From Pollutimonas sp. M17 (GTDB lineage: Bacteria; Pseudomonadota; Gammaproteobacteria; Burkholderiales; Burkholderiaceae_B), in contig NZ_CP107548.1 in the NCBI RefSeq assembly GCF_025836975.1, positions 124,001 through 188,000 on the forward strand: DNA of 64,000 nucleotides. The letters run 5' to 3'. Below are positions 1 through 12,384 of this stretch, in pieces (position 1 is the first letter of the stretch; every line of letters begins with the position of its first letter). Below the pieces are notes generated by a model. The model was not told the origin of the DNA. It saw only the letters and a list, made by a program, of their open reading frames with translations, and did no database searches. Made by a program: the position numbers and the translations under genes.

Positions 1-729
1 CAGCGTGTTCTTCAGGGCATGGCGGAAATTGATCATGCGCTCGGGCAGGCCGCGGGCCCGGGCGAACTTGATGAAGTCCGTTTGCAGGACCTCGAGCATT
101 TCGGCGCGCACCAGCCGCATGATCAGGGTCATCTGGAACAGCGCCAGCGTAAAGGCCGGCATGATCAGCGATTGCCAGCCGCTTTTCGTAAGAAAACCCG
201 TGGACCACCAGCCCAGGTCGACGACGTCGCCCCGGCCGAAACTGGGCAGCCAGCGCAGCATCACCCCGAAGAACAAAATCATGAGTATGCCGATCAGGAA
301 GGTCGGCAGCGAGATTCCGATCAGCGACAGGGTCATGAAGCTGCGCGACAGCACGCCGTCGCGCCGCAGCGCGGTGTAGATGCCCATGGGTATGCCCAGG
401 AACAGCGCGATCACGGCCGACGCGAAGGACAATTCCAGCGTCGCCGGCATGCGGCTCTCGATGAGCTCGCTGACCGGCCGGCGCTGGCGGTAGGACATGC
501 CGAAATCGCCCTGGGCCGCATTGCCGATGAAGCGGAAGTACTGGATCAGGAAGGGATCGTCCAGGCCCAGCTGCCTGCGCAGTTCGGCGCGCTGCTCCAG
601 CGTGGTGTCTTGCCCGACCATGTTGTTGATCGGGTCACCCACGTAGCGGAACATGGCAAACGCAATGAAGCCGACGGCGAGCATCACGAAGATGGACTGG
701 AATACCCGCCGTGCAATGAAGTTGAGCAT
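1..729 (-). CDS. Peptide ABC transporter permease, DppB-like (partial)
   Basis: Inner-membrane permease of a dipeptide/oligopeptide ABC importer. The reading frame opens at an ATG 6 bp after the stop of the substrate-binding protein gene and stays open for 243 codons to the left window edge, so the C-terminus is missing. The protein starts MLNFIARRVFQSIFVML and shows an N-terminal membrane segment, the family motif region DPFLIQYFRFIGNAAQGDFG, further hydrophobic segments, and near the edge the EAA-like loop region FARARGLPERMINFRHALKN, which contacts the ATPase in this family. It is cotranscribed after the argE-like gene and the binding protein. Family membership is clear. The exact substrate (di-, oligopeptide or an acylated amino acid) is inferred only. 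Confidence 0.93.
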   Translation of the reverse strand, partial: MLNFIARRVFQSIFVMLAVGFIAFAMFRYVGDPINNMVGQDTTLEQRAELRRQLGLDDPFLIQYFRFIGNAAQGDFGMSYRQRRPVSELIESRMPATLELSFASAVIALFLGIPMGIYTALRRDGVLSRSFMTLSLIGISLPTFLIGILMILFFGVMLRWLPSFGRGDVVDLGWWSTGFLTKSGWQSLIMPAFTLALFQMTLIMRLVRAEMLEVLQTDFIKFARARGLPERMINFRHALKNTL

Positions 730-735
730 CGGCGT

Positions 736-2340
736 TTACGGCATGACCACGTTGCGGATGTCGAGCACGTCGTCGGCACGCTGCGCCACCTTGATGCCCT
801 TGCGCACGCCCCAGGACATGGGTTGCTGGTGCAGGGGCAGGTAGCCGTAATCGTTGTGGAGCATGGTGAATGCTTCCTTGATCATGGCGTTGCGCTTGGC
901 CTGGTCGGTTTCGACGTCGATCTTGGCGATCAACGCGTCGATCTCTTTGTTGCAATAGCCGCCCAGGTTGAACTGCCCCGCCGCCGTCTTGGAATCGCGG
1001 CAGGCCACCAGGTTGGTCAGCGAATTGGCCGCGTCGATGGAGCTGGGCGTCCAGCCCAGCAGATACATGCTGGTGTTGTTGCCGGCCTGCAGCAGGACCT
1101 TGGCGAAGTACTTGGACTTGGTCTGCGCCAGCAGGTCGATCTTGATGCCTATGCGCGCCAGCATGCTTGCCACCGCCTGGCAGACCTTTTCGTCATTGAC
1201 GTAGCGGTCGTTGGGGCAGTCCAGCTGAACGGTGAAGCCGTCGGGGTAGCCCGCGTCGGCCAGCAGCTTCTTGGCTTTTTCGATGTCGGTCTTGTACGGC
1301 GCGCCGAAGGATTCGTCGTAGCCGTTGATCTTGTCGGCGATGAGCGTGCCCAGCGGCTTGGCCGCGCCGCGCATGATCTTCTGGTTGATGACCTTGGTAT
1401 CGACGGTCAGGTCTATGGCCTGGCGGACGCGCTTGTCCTTGAACGGGTTCTTGCCCTTTATATTGGAGAACAGCAGTTCGTCGCGGTGCTGGTCCATGCC
1501 GATGAAGATGGCGCGGGCTTCGGGTTCGTTCAGGACCTGCACGTTGGGTTCGCTTTCAAGGCGCGGCCAGTCTTGCACGGGAACCGGCATGACCAGATCC
1601 ATCTCGCCCGAGATCAGCGCGGCCACGCGGGTGGATTCCTGCGAGATGGGCTGGAAGGTGATCTCGGTGACGTTGGTGGCGATATCCTTGTTCCAGTAGC
1701 CGTCGAAGCGCTTGAGCGTGGTTTTGACGTCGGGCTGGCGGTCCACGATCATGAAGGGGCCGGTGCCGTTCTCGTGCAGGTTGGCGTAGTTGCTTTCGCC
1801 GCCTTTCACGTTGGTGGCTTCGGTGGTCTTGTTCTTTTCGGCCCATGATTTGCTCATGATGTACAGGAAAGTCCAGTCACGGGGCAGGATGGGGTTGGGC
1901 GTGGGCGTGGTGACTTCCACCGTGTGGTCGTCGATCTTCTTGATGTCGGCGGCTTTCGCGCCATAGCCCTTCATGTCGGAGCCCTGGGTCAGGCTGCGCT
2001 TCCAGGAGAAAATGACGTCATCGGCCGTGAACGGGCTGCCGTCGTGGAACTTCACGCCCTTGCGCAAATGGAATATCCACTTGGTGGGCTCGGGGTTTTC
2101 CCACTTTTCGGCCAGTTGCGGAACCAGCTTCAGGTCTTTGTCGTAGGCGGCCAGGGTTTCATAGAACCAGCCCTGGAAGCCCAAGGTAAAGGTTTCGTTC
2201 AGCGACATGGGGTCCAGCGACATCATGTCGCCCTGGTAGGCCCAGCGCAGCGTCTTGGCATCGACCGATTGGCCAAGGCCTACGCTAAGCGCCAGCGTGG
2301 CGGCTATGGCGGTGTGCTTGAAAAATTTTGATAGCTTCAT
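736..2340 (-). CDS. Peptide ABC transporter substrate-binding protein (SBP family 5, DppA/OppA-like)
   Basis: Periplasmic receptor of 534 residues for a peptide-type ABC importer. It has a Sec signal peptide (MKLSKFFKHTAIAATLALSV, predicted cleavage after SVDA) and then the family-5 hallmarks LRWAYQGDMMSLDP, VPQLAEKWE and LRKGVKFHDGSPFTADDVIF. The length is normal for the family. The start is supported by a purine-rich Shine-Dalgarno (caggag, then aagga) just upstream. It lies between an argE-like deacetylase and the DppB-like permease on the same strand, which suggests uptake of an N-acylated amino acid or small peptide that the deacetylase then processes. That coupling is inference. Confidence 0.95.
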   Translation of the reverse strand: MKLSKFFKHTAIAATLALSVGLGQSVDAKTLRWAYQGDMMSLDPMSLNETFTLGFQGWFYETLAAYDKDLKLVPQLAEKWENPEPTKWIFHLRKGVKFHDGSPFTADDVIFSWKRSLTQGSDMKGYGAKAADIKKIDDHTVEVTTPTPNPILPRDWTFLYIMSKSWAEKNKTTEATNVKGGESNYANLHENGTGPFMIVDRQPDVKTTLKRFDGYWNKDIATNVTEITFQPISQESTRVAALISGEMDLVMPVPVQDWPRLESEPNVQVLNEPEARAIFIGMDQHRDELLFSNIKGKNPFKDKRVRQAIDLTVDTKVINQKIMRGAAKPLGTLIADKINGYDESFGAPYKTDIEKAKKLLADAGYPDGFTVQLDCPNDRYVNDEKVCQAVASMLARIGIKIDLLAQTKSKYFAKVLLQAGNNTSMYLLGWTPSSIDAANSLTNLVACRDSKTAAGQFNLGGYCNKEIDALIAKIDVETDQAKRNAMIKEAFTMLHNDYGYLPLHQQPMSWGVRKGIKVAQRADDVLDIRNVVMP

Positions 2341-2399
2341 TCCTTGTCTCCTGCCCTTGATGATTTACTGTTGGGACACGTAAGTTGTAGCGGCAAGCT

Positions 2400-2421
2400 G
2401 AAGGCCGCCGCGGCGGCCTTC
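2400..2421. repeat. 22-bp perfect palindrome between argE-like and binding-protein genes
   Basis: The stretch gaaggccgccgcggcggcct plus two bases is fully self-complementary. It sits 14 bp after the argE-like stop and about 60 bp before the binding-protein start. As RNA it could fold into a very stable stem. There is no T-run on either side, so it is not a standard intrinsic terminator. It could be an intercistronic processing or stabilising hairpin that sets the high expression usual for binding proteins. Confidence 0.5.
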
Positions 2422-2434
2422 GGGACCGGACGAA

Positions 2435-3583
2435 TCAGCTTGCCAGTTGATCCGTCAGTTTTTCCAGGAAATGCTCGCAAGCGGTCACTTGCGATACATC
2501 GATATATTCATTCGGCTGGTGGGCCTGGTCAATGGAGCCGGGCCCGCAAAGCACGACGGAAAACCCGCGCTCCTGGAACTGGCCGGCTTCGGCGGCGTAG
2601 GGCACGACGTCGCCGTGCGCATGGCCGCAAAGGCCGAACACCAGGTCCTGGGCGATGCCGCCCCGGTCTTGCAGCGGCGGCGCGTCGGCCAGGATTTCAG
2701 TGCTGATCGATGCGGCGGGGGCGATGGCCTTCATGGCCGGCAGCAGGCTGTCGGCATAGGCCTGGAAGCGCTCCAGGTAGCGGCGCCAATCGTCGCCCGG
2801 CAAGCTGCGGATGTCCCACGTGAATGTGCATTCGCGCGAAATGATGTTTAGCGCCGTGCCGCCATGCACCACGCCTACGTGCAAGGTGGTGTAGGGCGGC
2901 TCGAAGCGGCAGGCGGGATCGGTGGCGGCCTTGTTCTCGGCCATCATGCCGTCGATGAAGGCAATCAGCTTGGCCGCGGTCATGACGGCGCTGACGCCGC
3001 GCTGGACTTGGCTGGAATGGGCCTCGTGGCCGATGACGGTGGTGCGCAGGGCGGCGATGCCCTTGTGGGCCACGATGGGCCGCATGCTGGTGGGCTCGCC
3101 CACGATGACGGCGCTGGGTTTGGCGATATCGGTCAGCAGCCTGTCTATCATCGACGGGGCGCCGAAACAGCCGATTTCCTCGTCATAGCTGAGGGCGAAA
3201 TGGATGGGGCGCCTCAAGCCTTTCTTGATCAGGTCCGGGACCATGGCCAGCGCAATGGCGGAAAAGGCCTTCATGTCGCAGGTGCCGCGGCCATACAGCC
3301 GCCCGTCTTTTTGCACCACGGTGAAGGGGTCGGTATCCCAGGGCTGGCCATCGACCGGAACCACGTCGGTGTGTCCGGAGAGGACGATGCCGCCTTCCAC
3401 GTCGGGCCCCACCGTGGCGAACAGATTGGCTTTGGTCTGTTCGGCATTGGCCACCAGGTGGCTTTCCACGCCGTGCCCGGCAAGATAATCGCGAATGTAA
3501 TGGATCAGTTCGAGATTGGAATTGCGCGACACGGTATCAAAACCGATAAGCGCGGTAATCATGTCGAGCGACTGGGGCTTCAC
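2435..3583 (-). CDS. argE: Acetylornithine deacetylase-like M20 metallopeptidase
   Basis: Zinc-dependent amidohydrolase of 382 residues. Family: ArgE hydrolyses N-acetyl-L-ornithine to ornithine plus acetate; M20 relatives cleave other N-acyl amino acids. Visible motifs are the metal His in LSGHTDVVPVDGQPWDTDPF, the bridging Asp in YGRGTCDMKAF, the catalytic Glu pair in SYDEEIGCFGAP, and VGEPTSMRPIVAHKG. The length matches ArgE. It is the first gene of a three-gene operon with a peptide-type ABC binding protein and permease, so the true substrate may be an imported acylated amino acid rather than the biosynthetic intermediate. The gene symbol is by homology only. Confidence 0.88.
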   Translation of the reverse strand: MKPQSLDMITALIGFDTVSRNSNLELIHYIRDYLAGHGVESHLVANAEQTKANLFATVGPDVEGGIVLSGHTDVVPVDGQPWDTDPFTVVQKDGRLYGRGTCDMKAFSAIALAMVPDLIKKGLRRPIHFALSYDEEIGCFGAPSMIDRLLTDIAKPSAVIVGEPTSMRPIVAHKGIAALRTTVIGHEAHSSQVQRGVSAVMTAAKLIAFIDGMMAENKAATDPACRFEPPYTTLHVGVVHGGTALNIISRECTFTWDIRSLPGDDWRRYLERFQAYADSLLPAMKAIAPAASISTEILADAPPLQDRGGIAQDLVFGLCGHAHGDVVPYAAEAGQFQERGFSVVLCGPGSIDQAHQPNEYIDVSQVTACEHFLEKLTDQLAS

Positions 3584-3629
3584 AGCGCGTATTCTCCAGG
3601 TTCAGCGATTCAGGGGCAGCAGCCGACCG

Positions 3630-3659
3630 ATGTTAGCGAAGTCATGCTTTAAACGTCAA
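3630..3659 (-). promoter_or_regulatory. Candidate sigma-70 promoter for the argE-like operon
   Basis: On the minus strand, TTGACG (3654-3659) is followed after 18 bp by TAACAT (3630-3635), giving matches of 5/6 and 4/6 to the -35 and -10 consensus. It lies about 50 bp upstream of the argE-like start and is back to back with the Fur-box promoter on the other strand. Assigned by eye. Confidence 0.45.
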
Positions 3660-3742
3660 TGATTCGGAGCTTGGGGTATGCCCTCACATCGCCGCTTTTG
3701 CGCCGGCTGCCCGGCTGCCTTTACTTGAACTTCGAAATACAT

Positions 3743-3770
3743 TTGATAATCATTCTCATTGTTATAAAAT
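3743..3770 (+). promoter_or_regulatory. Fur box overlapping a sigma-70-like promoter
   Basis: The complement of 3745-3763 reads aacaatgagaatgattatc and matches the 19-bp Fur consensus (GATAATGATAATCATTATC) at 15 of 19 positions. It covers the spacer between TTGATA (3743-3748) and TAAAAT (3765-3770), which are 16 bp apart. Bound Fur would occlude RNA polymerase. The promoter points at the membrane-tethered chelatase gene that starts about 55 bp downstream, so iron-repressed expression is predicted. Confidence 0.8.
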
Positions 3771-3824
3771 GCCGTGCCCGACTCGCTGGCGGCGGGCATC
3801 CCATAATAACGAGGCGTATTGGAA

Positions 3825-6800
3825 ATGAAATCCGGATCAGGGCGCGGCTGGCTCGCGTTATTTATCTTCATGGCGGGCATGCTGGGCCTGCTGCCCGCCG
3901 CGCATGCCGCATCCGCCCTTTTCATTACGACCGGCAACGTTCCGCCGGGAAAGTTCAAGGCGCTGGAAAGCATTGCCTTGAAGCATGGTCTGCAAATCGA
4001 TGTGCGCTATCTGGATGAGCTGCCCGCCGACGTGGATGCGGGCCTGTTCGAGGGGCGCGACATCGTATTTGTGGACACCTACCAGCAAGACGCCGTGCGG
4101 GCCAAGCTGGTGCGCGCCTTGCCCGGCCTGCGCATTCCCCTGGCCTGGGTGTACGACAAGGCGCCCGGCGGCATCAATATGCCCGACGACCTCGCGCGGC
4201 GGCTGGCGTCCTACTATTCGAATGGCGGGCAGGAGAACTTCTCCGGCTTCTTTGCGACCGCCGCCGCCTTCCTGGCGGGCAAGCCCGCCGTCGGCGTGGC
4301 GGATCCGGTGGAGTTTCCCGAGGCCGCCGTCTACCATCCGGACGCGCCGGGCACATTGTTTTCCGACCCCCTGGAATACATGAAATGGAAGGGGGTGGAT
4401 CCGGCGGACCCTCAGCGCCCCCCGGTCATCGGCATCGCATTTCATCAGCAGTACGTGTCGGCCATGCAGACCCGCCTGATCGACGCGCTGATAGAGCGCG
4501 TGGAGAAAGCGGGCGCCGTGCCGCTGGCCTATTACCATTCCACCTCGGACGCCACGGCCAATCTGCGCATGCTGGCGCCGGGCGGATTGCGCCTGGCCGA
4601 TGCAATGATCAACACCCGCATCATGCTGAGCACGGAAGGCCCGCGCAAGGAATTCGAACAGCTGGGCATTCCGGTCGTGCAGGCGACGCCCTACCGCCGA
4701 GGCGACGAAGCCCAGTGGCGCGCGGATCCCCAGGGCGTGCAACTGATGGATGTGCCGTTCTATCTGGCGCAGTCCGAGTTCACCGGCATCATCGATGCGC
4801 AGATCGCATCCGCCTTCGGGAAAGAGGAAGGGCAGCTTCTACCCATCGCCGGGCAGTTGCAGGCAGTGGTCGACAAGGCCCTGCGCCTGGTCGCGCTTCA
4901 GCGCAAGCGCAATGCCGACAAGGCCGTCACGGTCTTCTTCTGGAATTACCCGCCGGGCGAAAAAAACCTGTCGGCGTCCTTTCTGAACGTTCCGGAAAGC
5001 ATGACGGGCGTCCTGCAGGCCATGAAAGAGGCCGGCTACGATACGGACGTGCCGCAAGAGTCGGAGCTGGTTGAAAAATTGCAGCGCCTGCTGGCGCCCC
5101 TATATCGCGATGCCAAGCTGCAGGACCTGCTGGACGACGGCTTGGCCGACCGGCTGCCAGTGGACGACTACCGGAAATGGCTGGAGAGCCAGCCGGATGA
5201 CGTGCGCCGGGCCATGCTGGACCGATGGGGCGATCCGGCCGACTCGTCCATGGCGATACGCGAAGGCGGGCAGGCCTGGTTCGTGATTCCGCGGCTGCTG
5301 CTGGGCAAGGTGGCCATCATGCCGCAGCCGCCGCGCAGCGAGAAGTCGGAAGACCGGGAAAAGGCCCTGTATCACTCCACCACGGCGCTGCCCACCCACT
5401 TCTATCTGGCTGCCTATCTGTGGGCGCGCGAGCGGCGGCATTCGGATGCCTTCATCCATTTCGGCACGCATGGTTCTCAGGAATGGATGCCGGGCAAGGA
5501 GCGCGGCCTGTCCGTGCACGACTACCCCATGCTGGCGGTGGGCGACGTTCCGGTGGTGTACCCCTATATCGCCGACAACATCGGCGAAGCGCAGCAGGCT
5601 CGGCGCAGGGGGCGGGCGGTGATCGTCAGCCACCAGACGCCGCCGTTCCAGCCGGCCGGCATGCACGATGCGCTGACCGCCATGCACGATCTGCTGCACC
5701 AGTGGCTCGCCCAGGGCGAGGGCGCGGTAAAGGAGCAGATCAAGGCCGACCTGCTGGGCCGCGCGCGCACGGAGCGCATCATTCTGGACCTGGGCTGGAC
5801 CGACGAGCGCGCCGCCGCCGAATTTCCGGCCTTCATCGACCTGCTGCACAGCCATCTACACGAACTCGCCCATTTGGCGCAGCCCCTGGGCCTGCATACG
5901 CTGGGCCAGGCGCCCCGGATCGATCACCGCCTGGCCACGGTGCTGCTGATGCTGGGCCAGCCGTTCTGGGATGCGGCCGCCAGCCATGCCGGCGTGGCGC
6001 AGGACCAGCTGGACGAGGTCCTGGCCGTCGATTACGAAAAACTGGACAGCTCCATTCCCTACGAACTGCTCAAGCGCGTGGTGGTGGATGGACAGGATCC
6101 GGGTCCGATGCCCGATGGATTGAAGTCCATGCTGGAGCAGGCGCGTGGCTGGTACGCCGACATCGGCGCGGAGCACGAACTGCCCGCCGTCCTGGATGCG
6201 CTGGCCGGACGCTATATACCGACTTCCTACGGCGGCGACCCCATCAAGAATCCCGACGCCTACCCCACGGGGCGGAATCTTTACGGCTTCGACCCGTCGC
6301 GGGTGCCCACGCAGCAGGCCTGGGCGGCGGGTAAGGAAGCCGCGGAGCAATTGCTGGCGGCGCACAAGGAACAGTCGGGCCAGACTCCCCGCAAGCTGGC
6401 TTTCTCGCTGTGGTCGGTCGAGACCATGAGGCACCAGGGCCTGCTGGAAGCCCAGGCGCTATGGCTGATGGGCGTGGAGCCCGTCTGGGACAAGGGAGGC
6501 CGCGTCGTCGATGTGAAGCGGGTGGAGCGCGAGGCGCTGGGCCGCCCCCGCGTGGACGTGGTGCTGTCCGCCACCGGACTGTACCGCGATCATTTCCCCA
6601 ATGTGTTGAAGCAGCTGGCGCGCGCCGCCCAATTGGCCGCGCAGGCCGAGGAAGCCGACAATCCCGTCGCCGCCAACGCCCAGGCCATCGCCCAGCGTCT
6701 GCTCCAGCAGGGGGCCACCGCCCAAGAGGCGAATCTGGCGGGACAGACGCGCATCTTCTCATCCGCTTCGGGGCAGTACGGCACGGGGCTGGACGATGCC

Positions 6801-7811
6801 ACGCTGGCGACCGACAGCTGGACGGGCAAGGAAGAGGGCGACAGGAAGCTGGCCGCACTGTACTTGTCGAAGATGCAGTTCGCCTATGGACCCGATGAGT
6901 CCAAATGGGGCTCCGCCGGCGCCGCGGGCGGCAGCGCCGTGAACCTGTATGCGGAGCAGTTGAAAGGTACGGAAGGGGCTGTGCTGTCGCGCACGTCCAA
7001 TACCTACGGCATGCTGACCACCGACGATCCCTTCCAGTACCTGGGCGGCCTGAGCCTGGCCGTTCGGGCGCTGGACGGCAAGCCGCCCGAACTCTATATC
7101 TCCAACCTGCGGGGCGGCGGTTCGGGCAAGGTGGAGGGCGCGGCCGGTTTCCTGTCCAAGGAGCTGGCAACGCGCCAGTTCCATCCTGGCTATATCAAGG
7201 CGCTGATGGAAGAGGGCTATTCCGGCACGCTCAGCGTGCTGGACGCCACCAACAACCTGTGGGGCTGGACCGCCGTGGCCCGCGAGATCGTGCGCGACGA
7301 CCAATGGGAGGAAATGGCCAACGTCTATGTGCGCGACAAGTACGAACTGGGCCTGGAGGAGTGGTTCGAGAAGGAAAACCCTCATGCCCTGGCACAGACG
7401 ATAGAGCGGATGCTGGAAGCGGCGCGGCAGGAATACTGGAACGCCGATCCAGCCACGGTCAGCGAGCTGAAGGCCCGCTACCAGGACCTGGCCGCGCGCT
7501 TCGATGTCCATAGCGACAATCCGAAGTTCCTGGAGTATGTGGCCACCGGCACGCCGGCGGCACCCGTCGAACTGCCGCCGGCGCGGCAGGACGCCGCAGC
7601 CGAGCCGAGCGCCGCGCCGCCCAGCCAGGTTCCCGACGCGTCGACGCCGCCGGAGCAGGTCGAGCAGGTGACGGGCATGCAGCTGGAGAAAGTCGAGCCG
7701 GGCCAGGCGCCGGACGATTATTCGCTTCACCTGGTGCTGGCCCTGCTTCTGCTGGTGTTCGCATCGGGCGCCTTGCGCCAGGCCTGGCCGGCGCGGGCAA
7801 GGTATTCATAA
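3825..7811 (+). CDS. Exported CobN/ChlH-type chelatase with C-terminal membrane anchor (HmuS-like)
   Basis: A 1328-residue member of the CobN/magnesium-chelatase H family. Unlike cytoplasmic CobN it begins with a signal peptide (charged N-terminus, hydrophobic core around residues 9-24, AHA cleavage site near 28). It ends with a Pro/Ala/Gln-rich linker (about 1245-1295) and one membrane segment (about 1302-1318), so most of the protein should be periplasmic. Typical family stretches include FIHFGTHGSQEWMPGKERGL, YPYIADNIGEAQQARRRGRA and ISNLRGGGSGKVEGAAGFLS. It leads a trio with an ExbB-like channel and a DUF2149 protein and follows a Fur box. No cobS, cobT or chlI/chlD-type ATPase lies nearby. 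The same trio occurs as hmuS/U/V in Bacteroidetes haem operons, where HmuS is reported to remove iron from haem; that function here is inference. The ATG is preferred over a TTG two codons upstream because it directly precedes the signal peptide. Confidence 0.88.
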   Translation: MKSGSGRGWLALFIFMAGMLGLLPAAHAASALFITTGNVPPGKFKALESIALKHGLQIDVRYLDELPADVDAGLFEGRDIVFVDTYQQDAVRAKLVRALPGLRIPLAWVYDKAPGGINMPDDLARRLASYYSNGGQENFSGFFATAAAFLAGKPAVGVADPVEFPEAAVYHPDAPGTLFSDPLEYMKWKGVDPADPQRPPVIGIAFHQQYVSAMQTRLIDALIERVEKAGAVPLAYYHSTSDATANLRMLAPGGLRLADAMINTRIMLSTEGPRKEFEQLGIPVVQATPYRRGDEAQWRADPQGVQLMDVPFYLAQSEFTGIIDAQIASAFGKEEGQLLPIAGQLQAVVDKALRLVALQRKRNADKAVTVFFWNYPPGEKNLSASFLNVPESMTGVLQAMKEAGYDTDVPQESELVEKLQRLLAPLYRDAKLQDLLDDGLADRLPVDDYRKWLESQPDDVRRAMLDRWGDPADSSMAIREGGQAWFVIPRLLLGKVAIMPQPPRSEKSEDREKALYHSTTALPTHFYLAAYLWARERRHSDAFIHFGTHGSQEWMPGKERGLSVHDYPMLAVGDVPVVYPYIADNIGEAQQARRRGRAVIVSHQTPPFQPAGMHDALTAMHDLLHQWLAQGEGAVKEQIKADLLGRARTERIILDLGWTDERAAAEFPAFIDLLHSHLHELAHLAQPLGLHTLGQAPRIDHRLATVLLMLGQPFWDAAASHAGVAQDQLDEVLAVDYEKLDSSIPYELLKRVVVDGQDPGPMPDGLKSMLEQARGWYADIGAEHELPAVLDALAGRYIPTSYGGDPIKNPDAYPTGRNLYGFDPSRVPTQQAWAAGKEAAEQLLAAHKEQSGQTPRKLAFSLWSVETMRHQGLLEAQALWLMGVEPVWDKGGRVVDVKRVEREALGRPRVDVVLSATGLYRDHFPNVLKQLARAAQLAAQAEEADNPVAANAQAIAQRLLQQGATAQEANLAGQTRIFSSASGQYGTGLDDATLATDSWTGKEEGDRKLAALYLSKMQFAYGPDESKWGSAGAAGGSAVNLYAEQLKGTEGAVLSRTSNTYGMLTTDDPFQYLGGLSLAVRALDGKPPELYISNLRGGGSGKVEGAAGFLSKELATRQFHPGYIKALMEEGYSGTLSVLDATNNLWGWTAVAREIVRDDQWEEMANVYVRDKYELGLEEWFEKENPHALAQTIERMLEAARQEYWNADPATVSELKARYQDLAARFDVHSDNPKFLEYVATGTPAAPVELPPARQDAAAEPSAAPPSQVPDASTPPEQVEQVTGMQLEKVEPGQAPDDYSLHLVLALLLLVFASGALRQAWPARARYS

Positions 7812-7848
7812 CGCAGTCAAACGAAAAAATTGAAAAGGTAAATCAAGC

Positions 7849-8379
7849 ATGAGCCAGTTGTTGGAGCAATTGATGTATCAGGTCGGACAGGTCTTCCTGA
7901 TTCCCACCCTGGTGGCGATCTCGGTCCTGTTTCTGTATTCGCTGTATGCGCTGGGGGCGTTCGCCGTCGCGTACTTCCAGCGCAGGGGGCATGTCATCGG
8001 CGCGCAGTCCCATGCCTTGCGCAGCTACGAACTGCTGCGCTGGGCGCGGGCCCATCCCGGTTCGTCGGACGACGATCTGGATGTCGCGGCCCATCGCCTG
8101 CTTGAAGTGCCCCGCGTGACGACCCGGGTCACGCCCATGCTGGGCCTGGTGGCGACGATGATCCCCATGGGGCCCGCGCTGAAGGCCTTGTCGGATGGCA
8201 ATCTGGCGTCCGTTTCCGAAAACCTGGCCATTGCCTTCTCGGCCGTGATACTGGCCTTGATCGCCGCGTCCATCACCTATTGGATCGTATCCATCAAGCG
8301 CCGCTGGCTGGCCGAGGAACTGGCCTGGCTCCAGGCGGCCCAGGCCGCGGCCGCAGGCCCGGATGGGAAGCTGGCATGA
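7849..8379 (+). CDS. MotA/TolQ/ExbB-like proton channel protein (HmuU-like)
   Basis: A 176-residue inner-membrane protein with three hydrophobic segments (about residues 14-43, 95-118 and 124-150) and the family core TRVTPMLGLVATMIPMGPAL followed by ENLAIAFSAVILALIAASIT. ExbB, TolQ and MotA use such segments to conduct protons and drive a partner. It starts 37 bp after the chelatase gene with a purine-rich ribosome site (gaaaagg). Its stop overlaps the DUF2149 start by four bases (ATGA), so the two are probably translationally coupled as an ExbB/ExbD-like pair. It presumably energises the anchored chelatase or an unlinked TonB receptor. Confidence 0.85.
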   Translation: MSQLLEQLMYQVGQVFLIPTLVAISVLFLYSLYALGAFAVAYFQRRGHVIGAQSHALRSYELLRWARAHPGSSDDDLDVAAHRLLEVPRVTTRVTPMLGLVATMIPMGPALKALSDGNLASVSENLAIAFSAVILALIAASITYWIVSIKRRWLAEELAWLQAAQAAAAGPDGKLA

Positions 8380-8699
8380 AATTCCTGGACGAAACCGAGT
8401 CCGACGATCCCATTCTGTCCGTCGTCAATCTGATCGACATTTTTCTGGTGATCATTGCCGCGCTATTGATCACGATCGCGCAGAATCCGCTGCTGGACCC
8501 TTTCACCAAAAAAGACGTTACGATAATCACCGATCCCGGCCAGGACAGCATGGAGATGATCGTCAAGAAAGGCGAAAAGATCGAACGCTTCAAGGCCAAC
8601 GGCCAAACCGGCCAGGGAGAAGGATCCAAGGCCGGCGTGGCCTATCGCATGAAAGACGGTACCGTGGTGTACGTGCCCGAGCCGGGGGCGGCCGACTAG
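8376..8699 (+). CDS. DUF2149 protein, ExbD-like partner of the proton channel (HmuV-like)
   Basis: A 107-residue protein with a short acidic N-terminus (MKFLDETESDDPILSVVN), one membrane segment (about 18-36, DIFLVIIAALLITIA), and a small C-terminal domain that should face the periplasm. The Asp beside the membrane segment resembles the layout of ExbD/TolR. It overlaps the channel gene by ATGA, which fixes the start. Longer in-frame extensions upstream would lie inside the channel gene and are rejected. DUF2149 has no established biochemical role; its constant partners are CobN-type chelatases and ExbB-like channels. Confidence 0.82.
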   Translation: MKFLDETESDDPILSVVNLIDIFLVIIAALLITIAQNPLLDPFTKKDVTIITDPGQDSMEMIVKKGEKIERFKANGQTGQGEGSKAGVAYRMKDGTVVYVPEPGAAD

Positions 8700-8748
8700 T
8701 TCCGGCGCCGGCGCGGGCCCGCCTCGATGCCGCAGGCAAGGAGCCCAT

Positions 8749-9339
8749 ATGGAGCAAGCCCGGATGGCGGCGCCCCCGGACGCCGAGGCGGACGAGCGCG
8801 CGCCGCAGCGTATTTTTTTCGGCCTGTGGCCTTCCGCCGACGTGGCGGCGCGGATCATGGAATGGGCGCGCGAGGCCCACGCCGTGTGCGGCGGCCGCAT
8901 CATGCGTCCCGAAAACCTGCATCTGACCCTGGCATTCCTGGGCGGCACCCCGGCCGGGCGGGTGGCCGAACTGGTCCGCGCCGCGCCGCACTGGCCGGTA
9001 CGGACGGGAGCCGTGGGCTTGAGCCGCTTCGGGCGCTTTACGGGGCCGCGCATCGTGTGGGCCGGGCCCGACCGCGCGGACGTCCGGCCCGCGGATTGGC
9101 TGGACGCCCTGCACGACGACCTCTGGACCCGCCTGGAAGGCATGGGCTGGACACGCCCCGTCATGGCCTTCCGGCCTCATGTCTCCTTGCTGCGCAAGGC
9201 GGGCGCCGGCGATGTGCAAAGCCTGCGGCGCCCGCCCATCGTCTGGACGCCGGAACGCTGCGTCCTGGTGGCGTCTTCGCCCGGCCCGGAAGGCTCCAGC
9301 TACCGCGAGCTGGCGCGTTTGCCCATGCGCCCGGACTAG
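8749..9339 (+). CDS. thpR: RNA 2',3'-cyclic phosphodiesterase (2H family, ThpR/LigT)
   Basis: A 196-residue 2H phosphoesterase. Both catalytic H-x-[T/S]-h motifs are present: HLTLAFLGG in the N-terminal half and HVSLLRK in the C-terminal half. The family hydrolyses 2',3'-cyclic phosphate RNA ends and can join 2'-5' ends in vitro. The N-terminal 20 residues are an acidic/Ala-rich extension before the usual RIFFGLWPS start. A clear aaggag ribosome site precedes the ATG. It is probably not functionally linked to the chelatase trio that ends 49 bp upstream. Confidence 0.9.
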   Translation: MEQARMAAPPDAEADERAPQRIFFGLWPSADVAARIMEWAREAHAVCGGRIMRPENLHLTLAFLGGTPAGRVAELVRAAPHWPVRTGAVGLSRFGRFTGPRIVWAGPDRADVRPADWLDALHDDLWTRLEGMGWTRPVMAFRPHVSLLRKAGAGDVQSLRRPPIVWTPERCVLVASSPGPEGSSYRELARLPMRPD

Positions 9340-9409
9340 GCCGCCCGGGCCGCCGGCCCGCTAGGCATCAATATTGCTGACCGTCGGCTATTGCTCAGGA
9401 GGCCCAGTC

Positions 9410-9898
9410 ATGCAGCTACAAGGATCTTGCCATTGCGGTGCCGTTCAGTTCACCGTATCCAGCGTCAACCCCTACCCTTATCAACGGTGTTACTGCTCCA
9501 TCTGCCGCAAAACGCAAGGCGGAGGCGGTTACTCCATCAATCTTTCGGCCGATGCGCGGTCCATGAAGGTAAGCGGCGCCGACCAGATAACGGTGTATCA
9601 CGCCATGTTGCCCGGCGCCGGCGACAGCCGCCACGCCAGTGCCGCCGAGCGCCATTTTTGCAGCCGCTGCGGCAGCGGCTTGTGGCTCTTCAGCCCCGAG
9701 TGGCCGGAGCTCATCCATCCCTTCGCCTCGGCCATCGACAGCAATCTTCCGATTCCTCCGGAGCATACGCATTTGTTTCTCGATTCGAAGGCGTCCTGGG
9801 TGGAGATGGAAATGCATCCCGGGGACAAGATGTTTGGCAGCTATCCAGAGGAATCGATAGCGGACTGGCATGAGCGGCTGGGCCTGGGCGCGGGCTGA
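9410..9898 (+). CDS. GFA family zinc protein (Gfa/CENP-V-like)
   Basis: A 162-residue protein with the glutathione-dependent formaldehyde-activating fold. Cysteines fall in the family pattern: GSCHCGAVQFTV, QRCYCSICRKTQGG and HFCSRCGSGLWLF, consistent with two zinc sites. The ATG at 9410 follows an aggagg ribosome site at optimal distance, so the longer in-frame frame starting 36 bp upstream is not used. Members bind glutathione adducts or act in detoxification. The specific role is unknown and nothing in the neighbourhood narrows it. Confidence 0.87.
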   Translation: MQLQGSCHCGAVQFTVSSVNPYPYQRCYCSICRKTQGGGGYSINLSADARSMKVSGADQITVYHAMLPGAGDSRHASAAERHFCSRCGSGLWLFSPEWPELIHPFASAIDSNLPIPPEHTHLFLDSKASWVEMEMHPGDKMFGSYPEESIADWHERLGLGAG

Positions 9899-9939
9899 GC
9901 GCCGGCCGGTACGCCCATTCATTGCACAAGGAGAAAATC

Positions 9940-10254
9940 ATGGCATCGCGCAAAGACGATCCCGACACCCTGCCGTCGACCAGGGATAGAGAGTTTGAAG
10001 AAGAGGCCAGCCTGCTGAAAACCGGCAGGACCGAGCCGGCCCTGGGACCCAGCGATTCGTCGGATTCGGGCAACGACCTGCCGGCCAGCATGCCCGATAC
10101 CGACAGCGACCGCCAGAATACGGGCGAGCGGCCTCAGGTGGAGAACACGGGAGAAGGGCCGCTGGAAGAAGATGTGGAGCCCGACAAGATCGTTCCCGCG
10201 GACGCTGCGGGATTGGCCACGTCGCCGCCGGATCCGGAGCGCAACGGAGGCTAG
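9940..10254 (+). CDS. Small acidic, probably disordered protein of unknown function
   Basis: A 104-residue hydrophilic protein with no hydrophobic segment and no recognised domain. It is rich in Asp, Glu, Ser, Pro and Gly, and contains related short segments (SDSSDSGNDLP, PDTDSDRQNTGERP, ENTGEGPLEED), which suggests intrinsic disorder. Translation is supported by aaggag about 8 bp before the ATG and by codon use like its neighbours. It stands alone between the GFA gene and a convergent operon. Function is not recognised. Confidence 0.65.
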   Translation: MASRKDDPDTLPSTRDREFEEEASLLKTGRTEPALGPSDSSDSGNDLPASMPDTDSDRQNTGERPQVENTGEGPLEEDVEPDKIVPADAAGLATSPPDPERNGG

Positions 10255-10278
10255 CCCCAGCGGGTTTCGGAAGGCATG

Positions 10279-10312
10279 AAAAAAGCCGGCGCCTGCAGAG
10301 GCAGGCGCCGGC
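10279..10312 (-). terminator. Intrinsic terminator of the CoA-transferase/lyase/Bug operon
   Basis: A 12-bp perfect stem (10285-10296 with 10301-10312, loop agag), all but one base pair G:C, is followed on the minus strand by six T. It lies about 60 bp past the stop of the Bug receptor gene and ends that operon. It also separates it from the convergent small acidic protein gene. Confidence 0.9.
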
Positions 10313-10370
10313 CGCGTCGCGAAGGCCGATCGGCAAAGGCGGCTTGCCGCCTTTGCCGGCCCAGGCGAGC

Positions 10371-11339
10371 TTACTCGATCTTGATGCCGGCGTCGTCGAC
10401 GACTTTCTGAATCGAAATCGTGTCTTCGCGGATCTGCTTGGCGAAGTCGGCGGGGGATCCGCCGCCTGCTTCGGCGCCCTTGTCGGCCAGGACTTTCTTG
10501 ACCTCCGGAATCTGCAGGATCTGGTTGATGTTTTCATTCAGCTTCTGGGCGATCTCGGGCGGCATACCCTTGGGGCCCACGACACCGAACCATTGCCCCA
10601 TGGTGACATCCGGATAGCCCGATTCTTTCATTGTGGGCACGTCGGGCAGCAGGGGAATGCGTTTGGGGCTGACGACGGCGATGCCCACCAGCTTGCCGGC
10701 CTTGATATTGGGCACCATCAGCGGCGGGGAGTCGACGTTCATGTCCACTTCACCCGAGAGCAGGTCGTTCAGTGCCTGGGCGCTGCCCTTGTAGGGAATA
10801 TGCAGCAGCTCGATGTTGGCGGCCTTGCCGAATTGCGCGGCGGCCAGGTGCTGAGAGCTGCCGACGCCCGACGATGCATAACGCAAGCTTTTCTTCTTGG
10901 CCAATGTCATGAACTCGTCCATGTTCTTCACGCCCAGCTTGGGCGTGACCGTCAGGATCAGGGGCGTGCTGGCGACCATGGCCACCGGCGTGAAGTCCTT
11001 GTTCACGTCGTAGGGCAGGTCTTTGTACAGGGCCGGCGCGGTGGCATTCGAATTGGAGTGCGCCAACAGCAGGGTATAGCCGTCGGGTGCCGACTTGGCG
11101 ACCATGTTCGCGGCAATGGTACCCGCGGCGCCCGGTTTGTTCTCGACCACGAAAGTCTGGCCCAGGCGCTGTTCCAGGTGCCGGGAAAGCAGGCGCGCAA
11201 CCACGTCGGTGAAGCCGCCGGGGCTGAAGCCCACGATCACGGTGACGGGTTTGTCCGGATAGGCGGCTGCCTGGGCGGTGGCGCCCACTGTTGCCATCAG
11301 GGCAACGGCAAGTGCGCCGGCAATACGATTTTTGATCAT
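10371..11339 (-). CDS. Bug family solute receptor (tripartite tricarboxylate transporter receptor)
   Basis: A 322-residue periplasmic binding protein. It has a signal peptide ending near AQAAA and the Bug core YPDKPVTVIVGFSPGGFTDV, ENKPGAAGTIAANMVAKSAP and DGYTLLLAHSNSNATAP. Bug proteins usually bind small carboxylates or their amides. It is the third gene after a CaiB-type CoA-transferase and an HMG-CoA-lyase-like gene, only 37 bp after the latter, and is followed by a terminator. It therefore probably captures the organic acid that those enzymes degrade. No TctA/TctB membrane genes are in the window. Confidence 0.93.
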   Translation of the reverse strand: MIKNRIAGALAVALMATVGATAQAAAYPDKPVTVIVGFSPGGFTDVVARLLSRHLEQRLGQTFVVENKPGAAGTIAANMVAKSAPDGYTLLLAHSNSNATAPALYKDLPYDVNKDFTPVAMVASTPLILTVTPKLGVKNMDEFMTLAKKKSLRYASSGVGSSQHLAAAQFGKAANIELLHIPYKGSAQALNDLLSGEVDMNVDSPPLMVPNIKAGKLVGIAVVSPKRIPLLPDVPTMKESGYPDVTMGQWFGVVGPKGMPPEIAQKLNENINQILQIPEVKKVLADKGAEAGGGSPADFAKQIREDTISIQKVVDDAGIKIE

Positions 11340-11376
11340 GTCTTCTCCTTATGTTTTTGAACTACGGGTAATGAAA

Positions 11377-12384
11377 CTATAAGTCAGTGCGGGCCAGCGC
11401 GCGCTCACGGGTTTGGTCCAGGTCGGGCGGCGGCGGGAATCGCCGGTCCCACTTGCCTGCCTTCATGACCTGGCCGGGCACGTCGTGCCCCACCATGTCC
11501 GCCATCTGGCGGGCGCAGGCGATAAGCCTGTCCAGGTCGGTTCCGGTATTCAGGCCCATGCTGTGCAGCATGTGGACCAGGTCTTCAGTGCTGATGTTGC
11601 CGGTCGCGCCGGGCGCATACGGACAGCCGCCCAGGCCCGCCAGCGAGCTGTCGTAGCGGTCTATGCCGGTGGCCAGGCCCGCCAGCACATTGGCCAGGCC
11701 CATGCCGCGCGTATTGTGAAAATGCAGTGTCAGTTCCAGCATGCTCCAGCGCTGCGCCAACCCTCGGCACAGCGATTCGACCTGCGCGGGATTGGCCATG
11801 CCGGTCGTGTCGCAGATGGTGATGCCCTGCGCACCGCGCTCGGCGAAGAAGTCGCCCAGGCGCAGGACTTCGTCGGCCGGAACATCGCCCTCCATGGGAC
11901 AGCCGAAGGCCGTGGAGATGGAGATGTTGACGTCGACCTGGCCCGACATCTCGTCGATGATCTGCGCCAGCACCGCCGCCGACTGCTTGCGCGTCATGCG
12001 GGTATTGGCAAGGTTGTGGGTCTCGCTGGCGGACATGACCAGGTTGATTTCATCGACGCCGCATTCCAGCGCCCGCTGCGCGCCGCGCATATTGGGCGCG
12101 AGGCATACATACTTGACCCCGGCCGTGCGCTCTATGCCTTGCATCACCAGTTCGGCATCGCGCAGCGCGGGGATCGCCTTGGGCGACGTGAAGGAAGTGG
12201 CCTCGATCTTGGACACTCCGCTGCGGCTGATCGCATTGAGCATCGCGATCTTTTCTTCCGTGGGAACGAAGACCGGCTCGATCTGAAGGCCGTCGCGCAT
12301 CGATACGTCATGGATGTGGATGCGGCGTGGCGCGTTTTCCAGGATGGACGCGCCGTTCTGAGCGTTGGCGTGCAGCGTCGTCAT
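11377..12384 (-). CDS. Hydroxymethylglutaryl-CoA lyase-like enzyme
   Basis: A 335-residue DRE-TIM metallolyase of the HMG-CoA lyase family, which cleaves a 3-hydroxy-3-methyl acyl-CoA to acetyl-CoA and a keto acid. Visible motifs are VSMRDGLQIEPVFVPTEEK (metal and catalytic Asp-Arg), LHFHNTRGMGLANVLAGL (metal HxH) and GLGGCPYAPGATGN (loop with the conserved Cys). The start overlaps the CoA-transferase stop as TGATG, so the two are translationally coupled. Pairing with a CoA-transferase and a Bug receptor suggests degradation of an imported hydroxy-dicarboxylate such as 3-hydroxy-3-methylglutarate or citramalate. The substrate is inference. Confidence 0.88.
   Translation of the reverse strand: MTTLHANAQNGASILENAPRRIHIHDVSMRDGLQIEPVFVPTEEKIAMLNAISRSGVSKIEATSFTSPKAIPALRDAELVMQGIERTAGVKYVCLAPNMRGAQRALECGVDEINLVMSASETHNLANTRMTRKQSAAVLAQIIDEMSGQVDVNISISTAFGCPMEGDVPADEVLRLGDFFAERGAQGITICDTTGMANPAQVESLCRGLAQRWSMLELTLHFHNTRGMGLANVLAGLATGIDRYDSSLAGLGGCPYAPGATGNISTEDLVHMLHSMGLNTGTDLDRLIACARQMADMVGHDVPGQVMKAGKWDRRFPPPPDLDQTRERALARTDL

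Follow-up and report, generated by a model that had tools for sequence, protein, structure and literature searches.

Three genes on the same strand form a tight operon in the window, which is the whole 64-kb stretch of DNA that was analysed. These genes and the predicted control elements ahead of them are as follows:

3743-3770, plus strand: sigma-70-like promoter TTGATA-16-TAAAAT, from a consensus scan and a pattern match only
3745-3760, read on the minus strand: Fur box AATGAGAATGATTATC, overlapping the -35 element and spacer of the promoter-like site
3825-7811, plus strand: CobN/ChlH-superfamily gene, with its ATG at 3825, encoding 1328 amino acids
7849-8379, plus strand: gene for an ExbB/MotA/TolQ-like membrane protein (HmuU-like) of 176 amino acids
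8376-8699, plus strand: gene for a DUF2149 protein (HmuV-like) of 107 amino acids

The close packing of a CobN-like, an ExbB-like, and a DUF2149 gene, as described in the first-pass annotation, is confirmed by the open reading frames and by Pfam. The gap between the first two genes is 37 bp, and the ATG of the DUF2149 gene overlaps the stop codon of its neighbor as ATGA. The largest protein matches CobN-Mg_chel (PF02514) with 1003 bits, the smallest matches DUF2149 with 101.6 bits, and the 176-residue protein reaches 26.8 bits for MotA_ExbB, barely above the cut-off of 22.9. Of the six genes that make up the hmu operon (hmuYRSTUV), this locus has counterparts of S, U, and V alone; neither the list of open reading frames nor Pfam revealed HmuY, HmuT, or a TonB receptor adjoining the trio. 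A contig scan yielded at least 80 loci of betaproteobacterial relatives that are 52-77% identical; a few of the records name gammaproteobacteria or go no further than the phylum. The clade is larger than this set. Almost all of the complete loci among these relatives keep the trio together.

The Fur box is the sole match of at least 15/16 in the 64-kb window, and none of 1000 dinucleotide shuffles reached 16/16. Against an independent E. coli consensus it scores 15/19. The earlier proposal that the operon lies under a Fur box is borne out by this predicted box, which is unique in the window and overlaps the promoter-like site. Among the matches listed, Fur-like boxes lie ahead of 30 of 76 clade operons versus 59 of 737 control upstream regions (p=4e-12), a comparison that uses a consensus partly shaped on the same loci. 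With the unbiased E. coli consensus at a threshold of at least 14/19, the corresponding counts are 10/81 and 21/742, again among the matches listed. The best Zur-pattern score in the window is 12/15 (two positions free) versus 14/15 for the Zur-box copy of the system carried by the same genome at L010. Of the two FUR-family genes in the genome, one is strong (155 bits) and the other scores lower (57 bits), as would be the case if the first encoded Fur and the second Zur, or the reverse. These sequence patterns support control of the operon by a Fur-type regulator.

The NCBIfam model NF004644 assigns the 1328-residue protein the name “cobaltochelatase subunit CobN” with 1368 bits, which is the misannotation that had been anticipated. 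However, the protein has a signal peptide ending in AHA and one C-terminal transmembrane helix (residues 1299-1317), and its body is therefore predicted to lie on the periplasmic side. In a tree of 52 proteins (LG+G4, quick search), the 19 rows of the window group form one clade with a support of 100. Biosynthetic CobN (100) and BchH (100) are separate, and the HmuS clade, which includes the L010 protein of the same genome, also has a support of 100. A clade that joins the window group with biosynthetic CobN is rejected (AU p=1.7e-10), as is one that joins it with HmuS (AU p=7e-5). By this tree, neither HmuS nor CobN is the sister group of the branch to which the window protein belongs.

The whole genome (3.85 Mb, one contig) contains only two PF02514 genes and no match to CobT (TIGR01651). 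No cob genes lie near the window operon, and positions 1-12000 of the window have no match to a cobalamin riboswitch or other Rfam family; cobalamin riboswitches sought in the relatives were absent except in a Trichlorobacter locus (L121). The first-pass annotation had noted that B12 and chlorophyll genes are missing from the neighborhood and had argued against a biosynthetic cobaltochelatase. Both points stand, the latter on the tree, the export and anchor topology, and the genome-wide search for CobT. A ChlH/BchH magnesium chelatase was likewise rejected, given the separate BchH branch and the lack of bch genes nearby.

A different outcome was obtained for the suggestion that the protein is HmuS. 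The known features of HmuS are the haem ligands Met79 and His254, His538, His1209 with Glu1212, and a Met-rich insertion, and the His538 residue of its HFG(T/A)HG motif is essential for activity (PMC12583661). The window protein is excluded from this family both by the tree and by the lack of Met79, His254, His1209, Glu1212, and the insertion. Among the matches listed, with the window included, none of 79 clade members has Met in the Met79 column or His in the His254 column, and all 79 have Asp in place of His1209 and Gln in place of Glu1212. The window motif at the latter two positions, TTDDPFQYLGG, is closer to that of CobN (DSDDYYQFEGG) than to that of HmuS (SLDHVYEFMGG, in general form LSLDHxxEFMGG). 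The window protein also carries HFGTHG, whose His549 corresponds to HmuS His538 and is kept in 78 of 78 readable clade members among the matches listed. This residue is not diagnostic of HmuS because it is conserved superfamily-wide. The domain IV segment spans 98-112 residues with at most four Met in the clade versus 160-265 residues with 9-31 Met in Bacteroidales HmuS, but the insertion is a soft criterion because Aureibacter HmuS is itself Met-poor. An AF2 model of residues 28-1227 (pLDDT 82.7, pTM 0.78) superposes on CobN 7c6o and HmuS 9d26 with a TM score of 0.77 each and on ChlH with 0.66. Asp1068 (replacing HmuS His1209) and His549 occupy the HmuS metal-site positions.

By sequence, the real HmuS orthologue of this genome is a gene of a second locus at about 2.78-2.79 Mb rather than the window gene:

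2779.4-2788.2 kb of the genome (L010 5427-14202): second CobN-like/ExbB-like/DUF2149 system, with a Zur-like box, a divergent TonB-hemin receptor, and znuA

The L010 CobN-like protein aligns end to end with 9d26 (553 + 626 bits), is about 44% identical to Bacteroidota HmuS, carries the exact SLDHVYEFMGG motif together with HGR, and falls in the HmuS clade. Its operon includes an ExbB-like gene, a DUF2149 gene, and a membrane protein at the place of HmuT. This last protein has the position and size of HmuT, but no similarity to the Aureibacter protein emerged from BLASTP, and it can be called HmuT-like by place only. On the hemin model, the divergent TonB receptor reaches 357.6 bits, above the cut-off; the Zur-like palindrome GTGATGTTATAACATATC lies between the divergent genes, and znuA follows the operon. 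Because this orthologue sits under a Zur-like box beside znuA, an HmuS orthologue need not mean haem iron. Zur-like boxes also precede loci L017, L012, and L015. At L017 (4324-11287), the CobN-like protein is divergent and has PIFTQI in place of the catalytic HFGTHG; two Zur-like palindromes lie upstream and a znuA-like gene is divergent.

The trio is also found in settings other than haem. In P. aeruginosa, PA1922-PA1925 (TonB receptor, CobN-like, ExbD/ExbB-type, and DUF2149 proteins) belong to the Zur regulon (PMC4542158, PMC8531726, PMC9431628). In Trichlorobacter (L121), the trio sits behind two cobalamin riboswitches beside bzaF. The riboswitches are in tandem at 1200-1666, and a TonB receptor, DUF2162, ExbB-like, DUF2149, and CobN-like proteins are encoded at 5187-9609, in what appears to be a corrinoid version of the module. 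On a Runella plasmid (L122 1-12100), a hyp gene cluster includes the trio, a TonB receptor, and a protein of the urease-accessory type, and may represent a nickel version. HmuV/DUF2149 has been stated to be diagnostic of haem (PMC10100974), but its presence in Zur-controlled and cobalamin-riboswitch operons contradicts this. For the same reason, the earlier argument from a trio shared with hmu operons is right about the genes and weak on its own as a case for haem.

A class I chelatase normally depends on a partner driven by ATP, CobST or ChlID, which is unable to work in the periplasm. Because the CobN-like protein is predicted to be exported and anchored, ATP motors would have no access to it. 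The other two proteins of the operon are therefore of interest as a possible motor. When compared with the PDB at E<0.5, the ExbB-like profile matches only the stator proteins MotA, PomA, and TolQ, and these weakly (best E 0.009). Its third transmembrane helix reads FSAVILAL in the window type versus FATTVVGL in Bacteroidota HmuU, and because the Thr pair is replaced, proton conduction by this protein is not certain. The DUF2149 protein has a single transmembrane helix with an Asp (NLIDIFLV) that is invariant in 46 of 46 relatives and recalls that of ExbD, plus a small periplasmic beta domain; its AF2 model, of low confidence, shows one helix and five strands. Beyond this, the likeness of DUF2149 to ExbD is weak in both profile and fold, with an hhalign probability of 8% and the low-confidence model. 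In L121, and probably in L137, the ExbB-like/DUF2149 pair has a full canonical ExbB-ExbD-TonB set next to it, which makes it unlikely that the special pair is a mere TonB energiser.

Evidence for the link to haem proposed in the first-pass annotation comes from the clade as a whole. The first counts of neighboring genes were lower bounds, owing to crude gene calling on GC-rich DNA, and were repeated with tblastn. Among the matches listed, 25 of 49 operonic TonB receptors pass haem/haemoglobin receptor cut-offs, and 61 complete loci divide into 36 with haem-like receptors, 19 with CirA-like receptors, and six in which the receptor is absent or weak. The haem-binding protein ChaN is encoded in 17 of these 61 loci, all with a haem-type receptor, and clustering places bacterioferritin in five clade loci, one of which is confirmed above the bfr cut-off (both among the matches listed). 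HmuY (PF14064) lies beside a receptor, an ExbB-like gene, and DUF2149 in three gammaproteobacterial genomes (L130 7353-8519, L131 7336-8514, and L132 11477-12679), and the full-length CobN-like proteins of L130 and L131 have the same Asp/Gln motif, SSDDPFQYMGG. From these contexts, an iron and haem role for the window branch is likely.

Other neighbors recur in parts of the clade. At L116, L022-L027, L044, L096, and L072, many of which are from Comamonadaceae, the operon is accompanied by genes for NnrS, an ABC importer of the SsuA-like type, and another TonB receptor. L116 also encodes a cupin and a Crp/Fnr regulator. These neighbors hint at a nitrosative or low-oxygen setting. In 17 loci among the matches listed, a DUF2325 protein (PF10087) is encoded no more than a few genes away from the operon (for example L028, L033, L034, L053, L064, L065, and L092).

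Several other explanations must be weighed against a role in removing iron from haem. The one with the best remaining prospects, albeit an improbable one, is that the proteins release iron from a non-haem chelate, such as a ferric siderophore, that is imported by the CirA-like receptors of the window subclade. Such receptors are found at the nearest relatives of the window locus (L020, L029, and L057) among the matches listed, the L020 receptor scores 307 bits on the CirA model versus 215 bits on the hemin model, and Fur control would suit any iron source. However, the fold is that of a macrocyclic tetrapyrrole chelatase, orthologues with the identical motif adjoin haem receptors and ChaN, and receptor type says little about the ligand. 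Somewhat less probable still is that the protein binds haem on the periplasmic face as a relay, sensor, or store, aiding the use of haem iron while leaving the metal in place. The replacement of the presumed axial His by Asp throughout the clade would fit such a role, as would the report that a B. fragilis btuS1 btuS2 double mutant grows poorly on haem and still makes protoporphyrin (PMC6460266). Against it, the HFGTHG His that is essential in HmuS is retained across the clade, and Asp at this place does not prevent CobN enzymes from being active chelatases.

A zinc or cobalt tetrapyrrole or metallophore system resembling PA1922-PA1925 has a small chance of being correct. The Zur control of that trio and the Zur-like boxes ahead of L010, L017, L012, and L015 speak for it, but Fur boxes are found in the window and its clade, with lower Zur scores, a Zur-box copy exists separately in the genome, and the diagnostic residue of the Zur-type sister clade is His rather than Asp. 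There is practically no prospect that the database annotation is correct and that the protein is a true cobaltochelatase subunit of B12 synthesis. Its high NF004644 score and CobN-like Asp-Asp-x-x-Gln motif are outweighed by the rejected CobN clade, the signal peptide and anchor, and the lack of CobT in the genome and of cobalamin genes nearby.

We favor, with a probability of roughly 0.48, the reading that the operon encodes an iron-starvation-induced periplasmic iron-tetrapyrrole dechelatase, anchored in the inner membrane and assisted by the proton-motive force. At low iron, Fur would leave the box at 3745-3760 and the trio would be made. An iron tetrapyrrole, most likely haem, might then reach the periplasm by way of a TonB receptor whose gene lies elsewhere in the genome and bind the central cavity of the CobN-like body. 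There, His549 and Asp1068 would hold and protonate the ring, and iron would be released with the ring intact. The ExbB-like/DUF2149 pair, with its intramembrane Asp, may cycle the body by means of the proton-motive force and so replace CobST or ChlID. The substrate, the direction of the reaction, and the parts given to Asp1068 and to the motor are proposals of this scheme. Counting against it are the missing HmuS residues M79, H254, H1209, and E1212, the missing insertion, a locus that has no receptor of its own and whose nearest relatives have CirA-like ones, the weak ExbD likeness of DUF2149, the protoporphyrin still made by the B. fragilis btuS1 btuS2 mutant, and a classical haem receptor with a HemS system that the genome already encodes at 2.69 Mb. 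A search of the genome for a copy of the Pollutimonas receptor elsewhere found only distant receptors (best 76 bits). In favor of the scheme, no PF01126 haem oxygenase was found in the genome. The genome has no convincing FeoB (best PF02421 match 54.9 bits) and has an FTR1 homologue at 2546 kb, so that the exit route of iron released in the periplasm would differ from the Bacteroides model.

A broader possibility, which we consider doubtful, is that CobN-like, ExbB-like, and DUF2149 proteins constitute a general family of periplasmic metal-tetrapyrrole dechelatases driven by the proton-motive force, with branches that differ in the metal to which they are suited and in whether they answer to Fur, Zur, or a cobalamin riboswitch. 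This genome would then hold an iron version with a His/Asp site in addition to the zinc-controlled HmuS orthologue at L010 with a His/His site. To our knowledge, ring-sparing iron removal from haem has been shown in this superfamily only for Bacteroidota HmuS, and no paper on a Fur-controlled CobN-like dechelatase from proteobacteria was found in the open-licence literature searched. If the Fur-box betaproteobacterial branch does remove iron, ring-sparing iron removal would be extended to aerobes and denitrifiers, and many false “cobaltochelatase” annotations would be explained. The Fur-box and Zur-box copies in one genome offer a natural comparison for the choice of metal and substrate. The occurrence of the trio also corrects the assumption that DUF2149/HmuV is diagnostic of haem.

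Among known systems, HmuS (PDB 9d26, PMC12583661) shares with the window protein the superfamily fold, an export signal, a C-terminal anchor, and the HFGTHG His, and in Bacteroidota hmu operons it likewise has ExbB-like and DUF2149 partner genes and iron-type regulation. The window protein differs in its separate clade, its missing HmuS residues and insertion, and the lack of HmuT and HmuY, and its identity to the HmuS orthologue in the same genome is about 30%. CobN (PDB 7c6o) has the same fold and the same Asp-Asp-x-x-Gln motif at the metal site, but it is cytoplasmic, is partnered by CobST, and is encoded among cob genes, whereas the window protein is predicted to be exported and anchored, belongs to a separate clade, and comes from a genome in which CobT was not found. 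BtuS1 and BtuS2 of B. fragilis are periplasmic anchored CobN-like proteins required for growth on haem iron (PMC6460266). Both are from Bacteroidota, BtuS2 being HmuS and BtuS1 belonging to another Bacteroidetes branch. The PA1922-PA1925 operon has the same three inner-membrane partners in identical gene order, but it is controlled by Zur, whereas the window operon has a Fur box. The Zur-box betaproteobacterial relatives, taken as proxies for PA1923 in place of its own sequence, have His where the window protein has Asp.
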